DNA of 64,000 nucleotides, taken from contig JBDSQB010000002.1 in the NCBI GenBank assembly GCA_039930045.1, positions 388,286-452,285 of the forward strand, given 5' to 3'. Source of the stretch: Chthoniobacterales bacterium (GTDB taxonomy: Bacteria > Verrucomicrobiota > Verrucomicrobiia > Chthoniobacterales > DASVRZ01). Shown in pieces: positions 6,287 to 14,555 of the stretch (position 1 is the first letter of the stretch; each line of letters begins with the position of its first letter). Under the pieces are notes generated by a model. It was given only the letters and a program-made list of their open reading frames with translations. It searched no databases and was not told where the DNA came from. The position numbers were made by a program, and so were the translations under genes.

Positions 6287-7177
<891 letters not shown>

Positions 7178-7184
7178 CATTCCA

Positions 7185-8222
7185 ATGTCCTCCCCCACTC
7201 CAGCCAGTCTCGGTTATCGCATGCCCGCCGAATGGGAGCCGCACGCTGCCACATGGTTTTCCTGGCCGCGTCCCGAGGGAATCAGCTTCCCGGATTCCTA
7301 CGAGTCCGTCCTGCCCGCGCTCACGCAAATGGTGGACGCACTGCGCGAGTCGGAGGCCGTCAACATCAACGTCCCTAACATGGACGTCGAGCAAATGGTG
7401 AGGCGCCAGTTGAGTTCCATCGATATCAGCCATGTCACCTTTCGGCACATTCCAACGAACGAATGCTGGTGCCGTGATCACGGCCCGATCTTCGTCAAAC
7501 GCGACTCGGATCGATCCGTCGCCATCGTCGATTGGGACTACAACGCCTGGGGCTGGAAATATCCCCCAGTGGACTTCGATGAAGATGTGCCGACGCGGGT
7601 TGGAGAATTGTTAGGAATGGATGTTTTCTATCCGCGCATCGTGATGGAAGGCGGCTCGATTGAAGTGAATGGCTCCGGCACTTTGCTAACCACCAGCGCG
7701 TGTCTGCTGCATCCGAATCGCAATCCCAATCTAACCAAAACTCAAATCGAGGAGAAACTGCGCGACTACCTGGGCGTGCGTCATTTCCTCTGGCTCGGAG
7801 ACGGCATTATCGGCGACGACACGGACGGTCACATCGACGATATTAGTCGTTTCGCAGACCGCTCAACGGTCATCACGGTCGTCGAGGATGATCCGGCGGA
7901 TGCCAACTACGAGCCGCTCCAGCACAACCTGAATCTGCTGAAAGAAATGCAAGTCGAGGACGGCACGCCGCTGCATTTGCTAACCTTGCCCATGCCATCG
8001 GCAGTCATCAAACAGGAGCAGCGACTGCCTGCTAGCTACGCTAATTTTTACATTGCTAACAAAGTCGTCCTGCTCCCGATTTTTCACCAGCCGACCGACG
8101 CCTGGGCGACATCTGTTTTGCAGCAAGCATTTCCCACTCGGCGCATCGTCGGCATCGATTGCCGCGAACTCATCTGGGGCCTCGGCGCCTTCCACTGCCT
8201 TTCGCAGCAGCAGCCGGCGTAG
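7185..8222 (+). CDS. aguA: Agmatine deiminase
   Basis: AguA converts agmatine to N-carbamoylputrescine plus ammonia, feeding the amidase encoded just upstream. It belongs to the guanidino-modifying (peptidylarginine deiminase-like) superfamily. Visible active-site elements are WCRDHGPIF, EGGSIEVNG, DDTDGHIDD and the C-terminal catalytic Cys338 in GLGAFHCLS. Length 345 is close to the usual 340-370. No arginine decarboxylase is seen in the window, so agmatine must come from elsewhere or from outside the cell. Several rare Leu codons (CTA, TTA) occur here inside GTTAG/CTAAC pentamers; see the finding on that motif. The gene ends 4 bp from the convergent mgtE stop. Confidence 0.97.
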   Translation: MSSPTPASLGYRMPAEWEPHAATWFSWPRPEGISFPDSYESVLPALTQMVDALRESEAVNINVPNMDVEQMVRRQLSSIDISHVTFRHIPTNECWCRDHGPIFVKRDSDRSVAIVDWDYNAWGWKYPPVDFDEDVPTRVGELLGMDVFYPRIVMEGGSIEVNGSGTLLTTSACLLHPNRNPNLTKTQIEEKLRDYLGVRHFLWLGDGIIGDDTDGHIDDISRFADRSTVITVVEDDPADANYEPLQHNLNLLKEMQVEDGTPLHLLTLPMPSAVIKQEQRLPASYANFYIANKVVLLPIFHQPTDAWATSVLQQAFPTRRIVGIDCRELIWGLGAFHCLSQQQPA

Positions 8223-8226
8223 TTAG

Positions 8227-9606
8227 TTAAAGCAAGGTTCCGCGCAGCAAAAGAATCGCGGCCGAAAAATAAATTACCAGTCCCGTCACATCGACCAGCG
8301 TTGCCACGAGCGGAGCCGAGGACGTCGCCGGGTCGAGCCCACATCTACGAAGCAGAAAGGGCAGCATGGAACCCGCGAGCGATCCCCAGAGAACAACCCC
8401 GACCAGCGACAAGGAAACCGTGGCGGCAATCAACAGCCAGTGTTCTCCGTATTGATGGCTGAAAAGCGTCCAGACACAGATGCGCGTAAATCCGATCACG
8501 GCCAGGATGAGACCTAACATGAGGCCTGAGAGAAATTCTCGTCGCATGACACGCCACCAATCCACCAGCGTCACTTCCCCCAAGGCCATCGCGCGAATGA
8601 TTAGCGTTGTCGCCTGCGAACCGGAGTTGCCGCCGCTGGAAATAATCAACGGCATAAACAAAGCTAGTACGACTGCTTTGGCGATTACATTTTCAAAAAA
8701 ACCCAGCGCTGTGGCTGTTAGCATTTCTCCAATGAATAGAATCACCAGCCAGACCGCGCGCTTCTTCACCATGCCGAAAAGCGAGATGTCCAGATACGGC
8801 TCATCGAGCGCTTCCATACCACCCAACTTCTGAATGTCTTCCGTGGTTTCTTCCTCGGCGATGTCGAGAATGTCGTCCACTGTCACGATTCCGACTAACT
8901 TGGCTTCGGAATCGACTACCGGCAGCGCCGTACGGTCGTATTTTCGGAAAACCTGCACCGCGTCACCTTGGGAATCGGTCACTTTCAGCGGCTCGACAAA
9001 GCTGCCTTGTAGCGCGCTGACTAACATATCCGTGGGTTTGAGCAAAAACTCGCTGATGCGCACGTCGTTGACTAGCATTCCCGACGAATCGACCACATAG
9101 ATTACGTTCAAAGTCTCGCTCGCATGCCCATGTTTCCTAATAAAATCCAGCACGTCGGAGACCCGCCAGTCTTGTCTCACTGAAATGAAATCCGGAGTCA
9201 TCAAACGCCCGACGCTTTCCTCGGGGTAGTTGAGCAACGCCTGCGCCACGGCGCGTTCTTTTGGTGTTAGAAGTCGCAGCAGTTGCGAGACAACATTCGC
9301 CGGCAATTCCTCGAGCAAGGCCGTGCGATCATCGGGCGACATCTCGTTGAGAATCCCCACCACCTGCTCCTGGCCCATCGCATGGAGCAGCGCGGTTTGC
9401 GTGTCCACATCGAGATATTCAAAGGTGTCGGCTGCAATCGAATGCGGCAGAACGCGGAAGAAAATAACCTGCTCCTCCACCTCCAGATCGGAGAGCAACT
9501 CCGCCAGATCCGCCACTGGCCAGTCTGTGAAAACAGAGCGGAGAGAGGTGAAATCCCTCTGGGAAATCATCTCTCGAATCTCGGGAGCGAGAAGTTTGCC
9601 GACCAT
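8227..9606 (-). CDS. mgtE: Magnesium transporter MgtE
   Basis: MgtE is a dimeric, inner-membrane Mg2+ channel gated by its own cytosolic domains. The 459 residues show the normal order. First comes an N-terminal superhelical MgtE_N domain (residues of about 10-130, with MSPDDRTALLEELP). Next are two CBS domains (about 135-260; LMTPDFISVR and VGIVTVDDILDIAEEE), a connecting helix, and five membrane helices from about 285. The pore region has PLIISSGGNSGSQATTLIIRAM, where the family has its conserved Gly-Gly-Asn and Ala-Thr. Residues in the CBS dimer normally bind regulatory Mg2+. No Mg riboswitch was recognised in the 190 bp upstream, which also hold the terminator of the H1-like gene. Confidence 0.96.
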   Translation of the reverse strand: MVGKLLAPEIREMISQRDFTSLRSVFTDWPVADLAELLSDLEVEEQVIFFRVLPHSIAADTFEYLDVDTQTALLHAMGQEQVVGILNEMSPDDRTALLEELPANVVSQLLRLLTPKERAVAQALLNYPEESVGRLMTPDFISVRQDWRVSDVLDFIRKHGHASETLNVIYVVDSSGMLVNDVRISEFLLKPTDMLVSALQGSFVEPLKVTDSQGDAVQVFRKYDRTALPVVDSEAKLVGIVTVDDILDIAEEETTEDIQKLGGMEALDEPYLDISLFGMVKKRAVWLVILFIGEMLTATALGFFENVIAKAVVLALFMPLIISSGGNSGSQATTLIIRAMALGEVTLVDWWRVMRREFLSGLMLGLILAVIGFTRICVWTLFSHQYGEHWLLIAATVSLSLVGVVLWGSLAGSMLPFLLRRCGLDPATSSAPLVATLVDVTGLVIYFSAAILLLRGTLL

Positions 9607-9749
9607 TCCCCAGCTTTAAAGGGTCGGCATTTCCCCGCAAGCAAGAAATGGATAAACTTCTGGCACCCCAGAGTCGGGTTTCATTGTTATCACCGGGGAT
9701 GCAAGCCTCACATTGGACTTAAACTCGCATGTTAGTTTTTTCTACTAAC

Positions 9750-9779
9750 AAAAAAGGCGGCCCAGTTTCCCGGGCCGCC
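9750..9779 (-). terminator. Rho-independent terminator of the H1-like gene
   Basis: A perfect 8-bp GC stem (GGCGGCCC at 9756-9763 with GGGCCGCC at 9772-9779) with an 8-nt loop is followed on the minus strand by six T residues (complement of 9750-9755). It lies 18 bp beyond the stop of the minus-strand H1-like gene. Next to it, 9731-9749 forms a second small inverted repeat with arms GTTAGT and ACTAAC. Confidence 0.85.
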
Positions 9780-9796
9780 CTGTGAGTTAAGGATAG

Positions 9797-10234
9797 TTAG
9801 TTTTCTTCAGCGGCAGCAGTGAAACGGCCGGGGCCGGTCTGCTCCACACCCTTGAGCTTGTAGATGCGGATCGAGACGATGCGCTTTGGCTCCGGATGGG
9901 TGAATTGATAGTTCTTTTTGATGAGCGCTTCGGTGATTTCAGCGCAGCTCAACGGGCGCTTGGAACGCTTGAGAACGGAAACAACTGCGGCGGAAAGTGG
10001 ACCACTAGGAGAGGTCACGCGGCCACGTCCTTTTTTCGGGCCGGTCTTGCTAACCTTGGCTGGCGCCGGCTTCGTCGCTTTTGCAGGAGCGGTCTTGGCT
10101 GGAGCCGCTTTCACTGGCTTGGTGGCTTTGGCAGCCTTCACAGGTTTGGCTGGCGCTGCAGCTTTGACGATTTTCTTGGCAGCGGCTTTAGGGGCGGCTT
10201 TCTTGACGGGTTTAGGTGTAGCTTTTTTAGGCAT
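9797..10234 (-). CDS. Histone H1-like, Lys/Ala/Pro-rich DNA-binding protein with C-terminal winged-helix-like domain
   Basis: The first 75 residues are almost only Lys, Ala, Pro, Thr and Val in PAKPVKAAKA-like repeats, as in the tails of eukaryotic H1 and of bacterial HU/H1-like proteins. Such tails bind DNA nonspecifically and compact it. Residues of about 78-145 (SGPLSAAVVSVLKRSKRPLS, ITEALIKKNY and YKLKGVEQTG) look like a compact winged-helix or HARE-like domain, giving the same tail-plus-globule design in the reverse order from many H1 proteins. It is monocistronic, with its own terminator. A possible promoter has TAATAT only 6 bp before the ATG. Function as a nucleoid protein is inferred from composition; binding specificity is unknown. 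Confidence 0.8.
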   Translation of the reverse strand: MPKKATPKPVKKAAPKAAAKKIVKAAAPAKPVKAAKATKPVKAAPAKTAPAKATKPAPAKVSKTGPKKGRGRVTSPSGPLSAAVVSVLKRSKRPLSCAEITEALIKKNYQFTHPEPKRIVSIRIYKLKGVEQTGPGRFTAAAEEN

Positions 10235-10240
10235 GGCCGC

Positions 10241-10268
10241 ATATTAGTAATCTTTTCGGCTAATGCAA
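10241..10268 (-). promoter_or_regulatory. Possible promoter of the H1-like gene
   Basis: Reading the minus strand, TTGCAT (10263-10268) and TAATAT (10241-10246) are separated by 16 bp, and the ATG starts 6 bp after the second box. The -10 fits four of six consensus positions and the -35 only three, so this is a weak call. If right, the mRNA would be nearly leaderless. Confidence 0.3.
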
Positions 10269-10465
10269 ATACTATCTTATGCATTCCAGCTAGAAAGTTA
10301 GCTGTTAGCCCTTGGTTAGGAGATGCATGTTAGTTGCTAACACGACTAGCTATTTGAAAAACTATGCTAGCACCATTGTTAGCAAGCATCCGGCGCCGCG
10401 TCCGAGGTTAGCTGCCCATGCCTTGCATCCACTTTTTCGCTCCCGGAGCCGCGGCCAGACGACCC

Positions 10466-10493
10466 TTTACAAAGCACGATCTCTCGTTACACT
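10466..10493 (+). promoter_or_regulatory. Probable sigma-70-type promoter of secG
   Basis: TTTACA (10466-10471, five of six matches to the -35 consensus) and TACACT (10488-10493, four of six to the -10) are separated by 16 bp. The secG ATG is at 10508, so transcription starting about 7 bp after the -10 leaves a leader of about 8 nt with no Shine-Dalgarno. Confidence 0.55.
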
Positions 10494-10507
10494 AGACGGC
10501 TCCACCT

Positions 10508-11011
10508 ATGTTAAACGTCTCCATTTACCTGCTTCTCGGCATTTTGATCATCACTGCCGTGCTCATGGTCTTGATCGTCCTGATGCAACGTCCGAAAAAC
10601 GAGGGCCTCGGCGCTTCCTTCGGCGGCGGCATGACGCAGGACCTGTTCGGAGCCCAGACCACCAACGTCCTCCAGAAATTCACGGTTTACCTCGGTGCGA
10701 TCTTCTTTGGCTCCTGCCTGCTCCTCACCGTTCTTTACTCGAAATCCTCCACCCAGCAGTCGGCCATTCAAAAGCAACTCGCCGCCTCTGCTGCCGCGAA
10801 GAAATTGCTCCCCGCTTCCTCCCCGACTCCGCAGGCGGCCATCGTCGCCACGCCGACCGCTTCCCCGACTCCCTCAACGCCAGCGCCGAGTGCCACACCA
10901 ACGCCTGAGGCGACTCCAACTCCCCTGGCTGCGCCTATTGCGCCCGCTCCGGAAGCTGCGGCTCCCATTTCACCTGTGGAATCTGCCGCATCTCCTTCGG
11001 CCACTCCGTAA
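10508..11011 (+). CDS. secG: Preprotein translocase subunit SecG with long low-complexity tail
   Basis: SecG is the small accessory subunit of the SecYEG channel in the inner membrane. The first 80 residues match the family: a first membrane helix, then MQRPKNEGLGASFGGGM with the conserved cytosolic loop, DLFG...TNVLQKFT, and a second helix ending LLTVLYSKSS. Most SecG proteins end soon after this. Here about 85 further residues of Pro, Thr, Ala and Ser (TPTPSTPAPSATPTPEATPT-like) follow and should lie in the periplasm by the known SecG topology. The gene has a plausible promoter and is followed after 18 bp by an OppA-type gene. Confidence 0.93.
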   Translation: MLNVSIYLLLGILIITAVLMVLIVLMQRPKNEGLGASFGGGMTQDLFGAQTTNVLQKFTVYLGAIFFGSCLLLTVLYSKSSTQQSAIQKQLAASAAAKKLLPASSPTPQAAIVATPTASPTPSTPAPSATPTPEATPTPLAAPIAPAPEAAAPISPVESAASPSATP

Positions 11012-11029
11012 ATTTTCCTCCTCAATCGG

Positions 11030-12652
11030 GTGATTCGCCACTTCACCAGCAAAATTCCGCGCCCGACGATCCCTTTCCGAGGGTGGGTTTTGCTGGTTAT
11101 CGGCTTGGCCGCCCTCAGTTTCGGCTGCTCGCCCGTGGCGAAACGGGCTGACCTCGCCTTCCTCAATGGAGCCGAGCCCGAGTCAATCGACCCGGCGGTG
11201 ATCACCGGCCAGCTCGACGGGCGTGTCGCATATGCCTTGTTCGAGGGCTTGATGGCTTACGGGCCCGACGGCGTTCCCCAGCCCGGCACGACGGAGACTT
11301 ACGAGATGTCGCCAGACGGCCTCGTTTACACATTTCACTTAAGGTCGAATGCGAAGTGGTCGAATGGGAAACCGGTCACCGCCCAGGACTTCGTCGCCTC
11401 GTGGAAACGTGTCCTCGAGCCCGCCCAAGCCGCCGAATACGCTTACCAACTCCACTATTTGAAAAATGGTCGCGCCTACAACGAAGGCACGCTGAAGGAT
11501 TTTTCCCAAGTCGGAGTGCGCGCCGCCGATGAGCGGACTTTGATCGTTACCTTGGAAAATCCGACGCCATTTTTCCTCGGGCTCTGCTGCTTCTGCACGC
11601 TGCTCCCGGTGCCCATCGAAACAATCCAGAAATATGGCGAGGACTGGATCAAGCCCGGCAAAATCGTCGGCAACGGCGCGTTCACGCTGGAGGAATGGAA
11701 GCTGAACGACCACATCCGTCTGCGTAAAAGCCCGACCTATTGGAACGCTGCTAACATCCGTCTAAACACGATCGACGTCCTGCCCATCGAGAACTCGATG
11801 ACGGCCTACAATTTCTACAAATCCGGCGTCGCCGACCTGATGATGGACAAAGGTCTAACTCCGCCAGCGCTGATGTCGGAGTTGAAAAAGATGCCCGACT
11901 TCAACTCCGCCCCGTTCCTCGGCAACTACTTCATCCGCTACAACGTCTCGCATCCGCCCTTCAACGACGCCCGTGTGAGGCTCGCCTTTTCGCTCGTCAT
12001 CGACAAGGATCTCATTGTGAACAAAATCACCCGCGCGGGCGAGATTCCCGCGACTAGTTTCGTTCCGCCGAAGACCGCCGGCTATAATTCGCCGCCCGGC
12101 TATGCGCGCGATCCTGAGAAGGCCAGACAACTGTTAGCAGCGGCAGGTTATCCCGGTGGAAAAGGATTTCCGCTGATCGAATATCTCTACGATGACAAGA
12201 AGATTAATGAGAATATCGCGGTCGAGTTGCAGGCGATGTTTCAACGCGAACTCGGCGTGCGAGTCGGATTGAAACGTCAGGAATGGAAGGTCTATCTCAA
12301 CTCGCAAAACCGGCTCGACTACGATTTTTGCCGCAGCAGTTGGGTCGGCGACTACAATGATCCTAACACTTTCATGGACATGTTTGTGACCGACGGAGGC
12401 AACAACCGCACTGGCTGGTCTAACAAACAATACGACGCCTGGATCGCCGAGGCTGCGAAAGAACTCGATCCTAACAAACGCCAGAATATTTTCCGCCGCG
12501 CGGAGACGATGTTAGTCACCGAGGAGGCACCCATCTGCCCGCTCTATTACTATGTCGGCATCCAGCTTTACGACTCGAAGAAGTGGGGCGGCATCCAGTC
12601 CAATGTTCTCGACGAGCATCCGCTCCGAACCATTTACCGGAAGGTGCCCTGA
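11030..12652 (+). CDS. Peptide/oligopeptide ABC transporter substrate-binding lipoprotein (OppA-like, SBP family 5)
   Basis: A 540-residue extracytoplasmic binding protein for peptides or similar solutes. The start is the GTG at 11030, which gives a basic n-region, a hydrophobic helix and the lipobox LSFGC, predicting membrane anchoring. The family signature follows: LNGAEPESIDPAVITGQLD, YEMSPDGLVYTFHLR..AKWSNGKPVTAQDFV and VRLAFSLVIDKDLIV. The C-terminal part has GYNSPPGYARDPEKARQLLA and the Trp-rich segment WVGDYNDPNTFMDMF. No permease or ATPase gene for this system is adjacent; the downstream gene is an LPS enzyme. The binding protein is therefore orphaned here, and its transporter is probably encoded elsewhere. 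Confidence 0.93.
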   Translation: MIRHFTSKIPRPTIPFRGWVLLVIGLAALSFGCSPVAKRADLAFLNGAEPESIDPAVITGQLDGRVAYALFEGLMAYGPDGVPQPGTTETYEMSPDGLVYTFHLRSNAKWSNGKPVTAQDFVASWKRVLEPAQAAEYAYQLHYLKNGRAYNEGTLKDFSQVGVRAADERTLIVTLENPTPFFLGLCCFCTLLPVPIETIQKYGEDWIKPGKIVGNGAFTLEEWKLNDHIRLRKSPTYWNAANIRLNTIDVLPIENSMTAYNFYKSGVADLMMDKGLTPPALMSELKKMPDFNSAPFLGNYFIRYNVSHPPFNDARVRLAFSLVIDKDLIVNKITRAGEIPATSFVPPKTAGYNSPPGYARDPEKARQLLAAAGYPGGKGFPLIEYLYDDKKINENIAVELQAMFQRELGVRVGLKRQEWKVYLNSQNRLDYDFCRSSWVGDYNDPNTFMDMFVTDGGNNRTGWSNKQYDAWIAEAAKELDPNKRQNIFRRAETMLVTEEAPICPLYYYVGIQLYDSKKWGGIQSNVLDEHPLRTIYRKVP

Positions 12653-12656
12653 CATC

Positions 12657-14555
12657 ATGGATCGCCTAACCTTCGGCCTTTTTCGTATCGCCGTCTGGCT
12701 GCTGGAGCGGCTGCCCATTCGAGTTGCATTCCTATCTGGGCGATTGTTAGGACTCATCGGCTACTATCTAGCATTCTCCAGCCGGAAAACGGCACTGGCA
12801 AATCTAGCCATAGCGTTTGGTCGCGAGAAATCTCCCGCCGAACTCCACCAGCTCGCCCGCGCGCATTTCCAAAATCTCGTGGCTAACATCTTTGCCGTCC
12901 CCGCGCTTTCGCGGTTGAGCCGCGAGGAAATCAAGGATCGCATCGTCCTCGAAAGCGACGCCATAGTTAGAAGACTGCAAGCCCAAGGCACAGGCACAAT
13001 CTGGGCGCTCAACCACATGGCGAACTGGGAGCTCATCGCGCAGATCATGTTCCTCTTTGAGGGCACCGGCCTCTCTGCGATTTATCAGCGCCTCGGCAAT
13101 CCGCTGATGGACGAGTATGTTAGAAAAACGCGGGCCCGTTTCGGCATTCACATGGTCGAGCGCAAAGAGGGTTTCAATGAATCCATTGCCACCATCCGGC
13201 GCGGCGGCATCGCCGGAGTTTTGATCGATCAACACGCGGGCGACGGCGGAGTCTGGACGCCATTTTTCCAGAAGCTCGCCTCGACCTCGCCCCTGGCTGC
13301 GTTGCTCGCCGCCCGCTCCGGCGGCGTGCTCATTCCCGTGAGCGTGCAGACGACCGGCGTGGCGCGTTGGAAGATCATTTTCGAGGAGCCGCTGCCGCCC
13401 GTGCGCCGCGATGTGGACCAGACCACTGCTAAACTCAATCTCGTTCTCGAAAAACAAATCCGCCGCAGTCCGCACGAGTGGTTCTGGGTCCATGATCGCT
13501 GGAAGATCCCGTCGCCGGAATTTCTTCTCTCAAACACGAAACGCTACCGGCGCGGCATCGTTTTGCCCGAGGGAATAACTTTTGCCGACCTCCAGCCGTT
13601 TCGCCTCGTCGTCCGCTCAAGCAACTGGCTGGGCGACGCCATTATGACCGTTCCCGCCGTGCGCGCGATGAAACACGGCCGGCCCGACTTGCATCTGACT
13701 GTGCTCTGCCGCGAAAAACTCACCGACCTCTGGAAGCTCGTCCCCGAGGTGGACGACGTCATCGGCATCCGTCCGGGTCAGGGCGTTTTCTCCGTGGCAA
13801 AAATGTTGCGCGGAAAATTCGACGCCGGCGTCATACTGCCCAACTCCATGCGCAGTGCGTTGGAACTCCGGCTCGCCGGATTGCCGCGCCGCGCCGGTTA
13901 CGATCGCCAGGGACGAAAATTTCTCCTCGATCAAATCATCAAAGACCCGAAACGCGTCGGGCCGCCGGAGCATCAGAGCCTGCATTATTTGCGGTTGGCC
14001 GCAGCCATCGGCGGCAACCTCGACTTTGCCAGCTTCCCCACGCTCACCCGCAATAAACCCTATGCCCCCATTCGACTCGGACTCTGCCCCGGCGCCGAAT
14101 ACGGGCCCGCCAAACGCTGGCTCCCGGAACGATTCGCCGCCGTTGGACAAGCCGTGGCCCAGCGCCGCCATTGCGAATGGCTCATTCTTGGCACCGCCGC
14201 CGATAGCGAAATCGCTGAATCGATTGCAACTCAGATCGGGCCGAGCGCGAAAAATCTCGCGGGCAAAACCACTCTCACCGAGCTCATCGAACTGCTTGGC
14301 CAGTGCAGCGCCCTGCTCACCAACGATACCGGCACGATGCACCTCGCCGCCTTGCTTGGCGTGCCTACCATCTCCGTTTTTGGCAGCACCGAGCCGCTCC
14401 TTACTGGTCCCATGGGTCCGAATCACCGGGTCATTCGCCACCAAGTGGAATGCAGCCCGTGTTTTCTGCGCGAATGCCCCATCGACTTCCGCTGCATGAA
14501 CGCTGTGCAGGTGGACGAAGTCACCGAGGCCGTGCTCAAAGCCATCGGCGGCTGA
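12657..14555 (+). CDS. Fusion of lipid A acyltransferase (LpxL/HtrB family) and ADP-heptose:LPS heptosyltransferase (GT9, WaaF-like)
   Basis: One uninterrupted 632-residue frame joins two LPS enzymes. Residues of about 1-295 are an LpxL/HtrB-type acyltransferase, with an N-terminal membrane helix and the catalytic H-x4-E motif at His120/Glu125 (NHMANWE). This part also has RRGGIAGVLIDQHAG and a C-terminal WFWVHDRWKIP. Residues of about 310-632 are a GT9 heptosyltransferase: VRSSNWLGDAIMTVPAVRAM, LCPGAEYGPAKRWL, NDTGTMHLAALLGVPTISVFG and the Cys cluster CSPCFLRECPIDFRC. ATG 12657 is chosen because it begins the membrane helix; an upstream in-frame ATG lies inside the OppA gene. The fusion would couple lipid A acylation with core heptose addition at the inner membrane. 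The junction is near residue 300. Confidence 0.92.
   Translation: MDRLTFGLFRIAVWLLERLPIRVAFLSGRLLGLIGYYLAFSSRKTALANLAIAFGREKSPAELHQLARAHFQNLVANIFAVPALSRLSREEIKDRIVLESDAIVRRLQAQGTGTIWALNHMANWELIAQIMFLFEGTGLSAIYQRLGNPLMDEYVRKTRARFGIHMVERKEGFNESIATIRRGGIAGVLIDQHAGDGGVWTPFFQKLASTSPLAALLAARSGGVLIPVSVQTTGVARWKIIFEEPLPPVRRDVDQTTAKLNLVLEKQIRRSPHEWFWVHDRWKIPSPEFLLSNTKRYRRGIVLPEGITFADLQPFRLVVRSSNWLGDAIMTVPAVRAMKHGRPDLHLTVLCREKLTDLWKLVPEVDDVIGIRPGQGVFSVAKMLRGKFDAGVILPNSMRSALELRLAGLPRRAGYDRQGRKFLLDQIIKDPKRVGPPEHQSLHYLRLAAAIGGNLDFASFPTLTRNKPYAPIRLGLCPGAEYGPAKRWLPERFAAVGQAVAQRRHCEWLILGTAADSEIAESIATQIGPSAKNLAGKTTLTELIELLGQCSALLTNDTGTMHLAALLGVPTISVFGSTEPLLTGPMGPNHRVIRHQVECSPCFLRECPIDFRCMNAVQVDEVTEAVLKAIGG

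Follow-up and report, generated by a model that had tools for sequence, protein, structure and literature searches.

The seven GTTAG motifs crowded into the spacer that separates an H1-like gene from secG belong to a GTTAG-rich tract, of which they form the non-coding part, and the contig that carries it (C2, 644,206 bp) is a mosaic of two states, a GTTAG-poor sea and tracts of about 3.7 kb on average that make up about 15% of its length. The explanation preferred here, tentatively and at somewhat less than an even chance, is that the cluster is a non-coding piece of a recombination tract imported from a close, GTTAG-rich sister lineage. Positions refer to the window, that is, the whole 64,000-nucleotide stretch of DNA that was analysed, unless C2 is named. 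The features concerned are the following.

7174 to 13119, both strands: GTTAG-rich tract with 36 motifs, equal to positions 395459-401404 of C2
7185 to 8222, plus strand: gene of the PF04371 (PAD_porph) deiminase family, with 6 tract motifs inside
8227 to 9606, minus strand: mgtE (PF01769/PF03448/CBS), with 5 tract motifs inside
9731 to 9749, no strand assigned: GTTAGT...ACTAAC pair between the terminator of the H1-like gene and mgtE
9750 to 9779, minus strand: intrinsic-terminator-like hairpin and T-run 3' of the H1-like gene, read by eye
9797 to 10234, minus strand: H1-like protein of 145 aa, with a Lys/Ala/Pro-rich tail and a predicted C-terminal winged helix (residues ~79-141)
10297 to 10411, no strand assigned: the reported cluster, 7 motifs (6 plus, 1 minus), the tract's non-coding part
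10329 to 10341, no strand assigned: inverted pair GTTAGTTGCTAAC, a single copy in the genome
10508 to 11011, plus strand: secG (profile match to PF03840, 67.7 bits)
11030 to 12652, plus strand: family 5 solute-binding protein (PF00496), with tract motifs inside
12552 to 14555, plus strand: 667-aa ORF with 5 motifs up to 13119 and zero beyond, the tract ending inside it
C2 262297 to 267816 (L021:4012-9531): double-length uvrA, 1839 aa, 22 motifs, with a tract inside the gene

As reported in the preliminary description, seven GTTAG/CTAAC motifs lie within 115 bp of non-coding DNA (positions 10297, 10304, 10315, 10329, 10337 on the minus strand, 10378 and 10407), housed in the 273-bp spacer from which the H1-like gene and secG diverge. 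That no cluster is denser was also borne out, since these are the top 115 bp of the contig (runner-up 4 motifs), and the best 115 bp of 20 further genome stretches, picked around motif clusters and used solely for gene naming and spacer ranking, contained six. Shuffling the window gave 42.4 GTTAG expected per 64 kb, or 0.07 per 115 bp, and seven motifs are far beyond plain chance. Among the sampled spacers of this genome of up to 400 bp (521 spacers of at least 30 bp) the spacer has the top motif count, the next having 3; some spacers of 34-76 bp equal or exceed it in motifs per kb, and longer non-coding stretches of the sampled DNA hold up to 21 motifs. A fairer background is the surrounding tract, and non-coding tract DNA carries about 10 motifs/kb (62 in 5,795 bp), a rough figure because the simple gene caller dropped real genes, for example the solute-binding-protein gene at 11030-12652. 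At that density, seven or more motifs have P 0.02 in the 273-bp spacer and P 0.0002 in the 115 bp picked post hoc, both uncorrected for the number of spacers tested. The two inverted arrangements described earlier were likewise recovered: GTTAGTTGCTAAC at 10329-10341, and the GTTAGT...ACTAAC pair, which adjoins a GC-rich hairpin with a minus-strand T-run. The inverted repeat was rejected as a functional unit, as only three convergent pairs with that spacing occur in the contig and the exact 13-mer is found once genome-wide. An RNA element was also rejected: two matches on the minus strand over the end of the H1-like gene scored below gathering level, and L116 gave none at that level.

The surrounding tract holds 36 of the window's 65 GTTAG (either strand), with 29 in the other 58 kb, and TGTTAG occurs 23 times in the 6.1-kb tract versus 8 times in the remaining 58 kb. 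A two-state model that used coding sites placed it at C2 395605-401404. About two thirds of the tract motifs lie inside genes (deiminase, mgtE, H1-like, solute-binding and the next gene), which the preliminary description overlooked. The MgtE protein is nearest to proteins from Ignavibacteria/Chlorobi MAGs, with up to 66% identity among the best 80 of 531 matches, which suggests a horizontal origin; those 80 are mainly from Ignavibacteria, Bacteroidetes, Spirochaetes and Lachnospiraceae, with no close relative among them, and the best match titled Verrucomicrobia among the 80 listed reaches 45%. The gene carries tract motifs despite this suggested origin.

The contig contains 718 GTTAG motifs, the most unevenly spread of its 512 pentamers (variance/mean 3.95 in 2-kb bins; next 2.90), and TGTTAG is present 321 times versus 78 expected. 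Segment scoring delimited 17 tracts (best score 72.7), in which 437 of the 718 motifs sit in 14.5% of the contig, whereas 20 random placements gave 0 to 5 such segments and a best score of 20.1. A hidden Markov model of the coding opportunities alone resolved 28 segments, some of them tiny, within which 45-52% of the silent chances are realised (18% for the TTA class) versus 1-8% outside. Because the tracts are defined by the motif itself, part of the contrast between tract and sea is built in. The 22 tracts with enough sites share one rate (chi2 15.3, p 0.81), sites within tracts are uncorrelated at 8-2000 bp, and the motif density is 4.7/kb. The edges are steps: with the edge-defining sites left out, the realised fraction is 0.51 (69 sites) up to 300 bp inside and 0.032 (31 sites) up to 300 bp outside. 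Segment lengths look exponential (mean 3.7 kb, CV 0.98; 27 segments longer than 200 bp). One tract starts 1.1 kb into the double-length UvrA gene, and pheT has 14 motifs where the adjacent pheS has at most one; tract edges can thus cut genes and gene pairs. Sharp edges, inner homogeneity and exponential-like lengths are what is expected of recombination tracts, and all three are found here, together with gene cutting in these examples. Helical phasing or a fixed spacing of the motifs was looked for among pairs at 5-65 bp (75, 39 and 32 pairs) and not seen; same-strand pairs within 120 bp are in mild excess (155 versus 113, p 0.012). Repair and recombination genes account for 7 of 29 high-motif genes and 1 of 30 low-motif controls (p 0.026, with unequal thresholds): the former were the genes with the most motifs, a choice biased towards long genes, and their matches were accepted at E<=1e-8; the controls, a random draw from 243 low-motif genes, had to reach E<=1e-90, and many gave no match. 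NCBIfam's own cut-offs are not reached by the AddA-, AddB-, Lhr- and PcrA-type matches among the seven. The enrichment is suggestive only, and it would mean that tract position may not be random.

Inside genes, the GTTAG of the tracts is made by silent codon choice. Leucine before threonine is written CTA in 109 of 232 cases in tracts (47%) versus 59 of 1026 outside (5.8%); NCT precedes AAC in 83 of 160 (52%) versus 37 of 718 (5.2%), GTT precedes AGN in 48 of 91 (53%) versus 33 of 318 (10%), and TTA stands between G and G in 88 of 461 (19%) versus 40 of 2218 (1.8%). In control contexts that are unable to form the motif, the same codons have similar shares in tracts and outside (CTA 4.8 versus 2.8%, NCT 13.8 versus 13.6%, GTT 15.8 versus 17.6%, TTA 2.6 versus 2.8%). 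The frequencies of the tested dipeptides differ little between tracts and outside, with the exception of Leu-Thr (1.34-fold in tracts). Furthermore, the tract copies share a flank signature, WDGTTAGNH, with A or T at -2 (74%), T at -1 in 57% and C in 3%, and A at +6 in 46% and G in 7%. The signature is much alike in the 83 tract copies called non-coding and absent from 244 background copies. It is reproducible, and WDGTTAGNH looks like the site of a DNA-binding protein. CTAG-type words are also raised in tracts (GCTAG 2.7-fold, ACTAG 3.2-fold), and GTACTAGC occurs 16 times in C2 versus 0.3 expected, 13 of them in tracts; the reader of GTTAG may have this word as another site.

The idea that the tracts are foreign DNA with a different composition was rejected, given their native codon usage and a second motif that they retain. 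The G+C content is 0.569 in tracts versus 0.573 in the sea, and the codon usage of the tracts is as extreme in 67 of 300 sets of rolled labels; a weak residual difference in composition between tract and sea (AUC 0.70) was reached by 0 of 60. The second motif, even and bipartite, reads roughly A..nCGAGTTNSATT..AATC, with 1242 hits in 644 kb (~1.9/kb) and 23-66 hits in five column-shuffled versions. It is found on both strands, mostly in coding DNA (for example at loci L018-L049 of C2). Its density is 2.07/kb in tracts versus 1.90/kb in the sea, with 2 of 26 columns differing at p<0.05, uncorrected, and 11 sampled relatives have 0.06-0.17/kb, equal to or slightly over their shuffled controls. 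It looks like an uptake signal sequence, and in appearance it fits that role better than GTTAG does. Since the tracts share its density and the native codon usage, any donor would be close kin.

GTTAG-cored signals are also found elsewhere in the order, in which the relatives were sampled at 20-310 kb each. The 9-mer TCGTTAGGC occurs 349 times in 310 kb of the order-mate G152 versus 6.5 expected; both the over-representation and the even spread expected of DUS/USS are found there, GTTAG itself having a variance/mean of 1.23. Counts of 37, 21, 37 and 13 were obtained in 29-65 kb of G149, G151, G153 and G148, and of 2, 0 and 1 in 72-118 kb of G085, G035 and G013. The 9-mer (TCGTTAGGC/GCCTAACGA) is spread genome-wide in the genera g43 and g42 (L072-L091 in G152; L092-L107 in G151, G153, G149 and G148), and by sequence it may be called uptake-sequence-like in them. 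The occurrence of TCGTTAGGC and WDGTTAGNH in one order points to GTTAG-cored genome-wide signals with differing flanks, similar to the dialects of uptake sequences. In a count of close GTTAG pairs across 213 genomes of the order, this one included, G152 had 521, G021 294, G085 283, G084 231 and the present genome 204. A GTTAG-rich donor was not found among the sampled order-mates, all of other families, which are without enrichment or have a differently flanked motif, and among the open-licence PMC papers listed no title reported GTTAG islands or the TCGTTAGGC signal in this order. Other words stand out in single relatives: 118 kb of G013 (L054-L059) have the over-represented 9-mers TAACGGGTA, ACTCCGAAC and AATGCCACA, which are repeats or further iterated motifs, and several contigs of G040 carry the identical 33-mer GTTAGCTTACACCCATTTCAGACCTTTTGTTAG at at least six places, perhaps the end of a mobile element.

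The H1-like protein is predicted to form a winged helix (pLDDT ~90) with a low-confidence basic tail (mean pLDDT of the protein 69). Foldseek placed the DNA-binding domain of Rok first among the matches (E 3.8e-3). Pfam gave sub-threshold matches only (HARE-HTH, WH_Rok, DUF4777), WH_Rok having E 0.03 and 14.9 bits, below the cut-off of 27.6. With VIA-align the best match of the model was a linker-histone globular domain (1ust, Z 9.1), followed by 9j8o at 8.7; non-histones such as 7viv (8.6) and Zur (8.4) lie within 1 of the histone matches, and the tool's stated noise level is 7-8. The H1-like alignment had no meaningful match among PDB sequences, and a search of genome contigs with the H1-like query gave no match in the named relatives. 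Homologues were found in 11 of 37 other sampled order-mates, and none in G148-G153 (0 of 6 searched in g42/g43). Around the homologous gene, in seven ~3.3-kb loci of 6 genomes (G013 with two, G035, G017, G002, G021 and G085; two loci come from one genus), GTTAG occurs 35 times versus 11.7 expected from samples of the same genomes, rank 1 of 512 pentamers (P 3e-8, uncorrected), with an excess at P<0.05, uncorrected, in 4 of the 7 single loci. AACTA ranks third, and a composition model on 17 loci placed GTTAG at rank 9 (70 versus 42). Enrichment of both words around the gene can be seen at L003-L017, L070 and L071. GTTAG lies at most 150 bp upstream in 7 of 15 homologues, in total 8 versus 2.9 expected, at rank 37 of 512 and outranked by A+T-rich words; in family f12 it is found upstream in 0 of 3.

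The preliminary description had read the cluster as a binding-site array, for example for the H1-like protein itself, and this interpretation is partly supported. Its idea of a protein-bound site agrees with the reproducible flanks, and the choice of protein agrees with the predicted fold and with the first rank of GTTAG around the homologous gene in order-mates. An array local to this gene does not, however, accord with the presence of the motif in most tract genes and in 27 other segments of the contig, or with the modest upstream excess in homologues. Nor does the protein accompany the motif throughout, since it is absent from the g42/g43 genomes with the GTTAG-cored 9-mer, and samples of relatives that have it show no genome-scale unevenness of GTTAG. 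Local operators serving the H1-like gene or secG only would suit seven sites and an inverted pair in a divergent promoter region, and the P of 0.0002 that the 115 bp retain when judged against non-coding tract DNA; yet with the motif throughout the tract and other segments, and a P of only 0.02, uncorrected, for the whole spacer, this is the least probable of the explanations considered, and very unlikely.

The two homogeneous states, the steps between them, the independence of sites, the silent spelling, the native codons and the retained second motif fit import best; import itself is inferred, as are the donor lineage, the uptake function and the reader protein. A close sister lineage would carry GTTAG genome-wide, read there by a DNA-binding protein; the signal would most simply be of the DNA-uptake-sequence kind. 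Fragments of that lineage would have replaced homologous stretches here, probably via natural transformation, and a spacer covered by such a tract, free of coding constraint, would hold the motif at its densest, which would account for the seven copies in the H1-like/secG spacer. The genome has a PilT-family ATPase; ComEC matches were found in 12 of 12 genomes tested and are weak evidence, as the same search matched 10 of 14 control genomes, including E. coli. Known uptake sequences occur at about 1/kb, and a roughly even genomic spread is a feature of the DUS/USS family. Against import stand a tract density several times higher than that 1/kb, the lack of a donor among the sampled order-mates, the second motif as the better fit to an uptake role, the absence of a foreign signature in tract codon usage, the possibly non-random position of tracts at repair genes, and the abundance of GTTAG near the homologous genes of relatives; within this genome GTTAG is strongly over-represented, as DUS/USS are, but not evenly spread. 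The ComEC and PilT-family genes, the excess of repair genes and the core shared with the even, uptake-like 9-mer of order-mates would also suit an uptake or recombination signal of this lineage itself, copy-rich fragments being taken up best so that copies pile up where they are already present and tracts arise in place. Such accumulation predicts graded, uneven tracts and correlated sites, whereas the rates are homogeneous and the sites independent, and it is improbable. Step edges and two homogeneous states would also arise if contigs switched between two co-assembled strains, one of them GTTAG-rich. With 23 contigs for 3.5 Mb, 99.88% completeness, 0.77% contamination and 28 segments within a single 644-kb contig, such an artefact is more improbable still, and the GTTAG-rich strain would still need explaining.

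A serious rival to import is a code for chromosome domains, which the high GTTAG count around the homologous genes of relatives favours. A nucleoid protein, possibly the H1-like one, would bind W-D-GTTAG-N-H, the tracts would be domains under weak selection at each site, and the H1-like/secG spacer would be autoregulatory. A defined 9-bp footprint, the use of about half of the silent chances with tested dipeptides little altered apart from Leu-Thr, the top motif count of this spacer among those sampled of up to 400 bp and the GTTAG upstream of nearly half of the homologues agree with such a code, as do the predicted winged helix, near to both H1 globular domains and Rok, and the third rank of the Rok pentamer AACTA; according to PMC6212790, the words that Rok recognises are about 5 bp long and contain CTA as their core, and they are depleted from the core genome but enriched where Rok binds. 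Against it, the sites have neither a spacing preference nor mutual correlation, genes are cut by tract edges, tracts are not A+T-rich, no genome-scale islands were seen in samples of relatives that have the protein, the protein is missing from the six genomes searched in the genera that carry the GTTAG-cored 9-mer, and the upstream excess in homologues is only at rank 37, with none in f12. A domain code is possible, although we give it somewhat less credence than import; its full form, in which a linker-histone-like winged helix reads the silently spelled W-D-GTTAG-N-H of sequence-coded two-state domains and also controls its own gene, is rather doubtful. Import and a domain code could both be true at once. 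Should the tracts be imports, the motif would let recombination tracts be read off a single genome, with edges placed within ~300 bp and no second genome needed, and it would point to uptake-like signals with a common core in an order distant from Neisseriaceae and Pasteurellaceae. If they are domains, which is the more interesting of these two main readings, synonymous codons would conceal a chromosome code whose candidate reader, a histone-like protein, is encoded beside the densest site.

Among known systems, the globular domain of linker histone H1 comes close to the protein in fold: a winged helix is predicted, with Z 9.1 to yeast Hho1p, and a Lys/Ala/Pro-rich tail precedes it. The Z is little over the noise level of 7-8, and the similarity is one of fold only. 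Rok, the xenogeneic silencer of Bacillus, has a winged helix like the one predicted here, and the tract motif is similarly enriched in regions and depleted elsewhere; PMC6212790 gives AACTA and TACTA as examples of the CTA-cored words of Rok, of which AACTA is the one that also stands out near the homologous genes of order-mates. Unlike Rok, the main pentamer here is another one and no sequence match was found, and the tracts differ from Rok regions, A+T-rich according to PMC2978689, in not being so. As a very frequent short genomic motif GTTAG is comparable to cyanobacterial HIP1, described in PMC4390886 as a palindrome tied to methyltransferases, although GTTAG with its flank signature is non-palindromic. 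For Neisseria, a section heading of PMC2397512 relates the distribution of uptake motifs to conversion tract length, and here too an iterated motif would be linked with conversion tracts, with the difference that the motif itself marks the tracts. The DUS dialects of Neisseriaceae, as presented in PMC3630211, have a short shared core, CTG, with variable flanks, and two dialects in one genome are reported there. In contrast to these, the GTTAG of this genome is confined to sharp tracts, is far denser and less specific, and has a putative uptake function; in common with them, it is a short motif that lies also in coding DNA, and its core GTTAG is shared by W-D-GTTAG-N-H and TCGTTAGGC.
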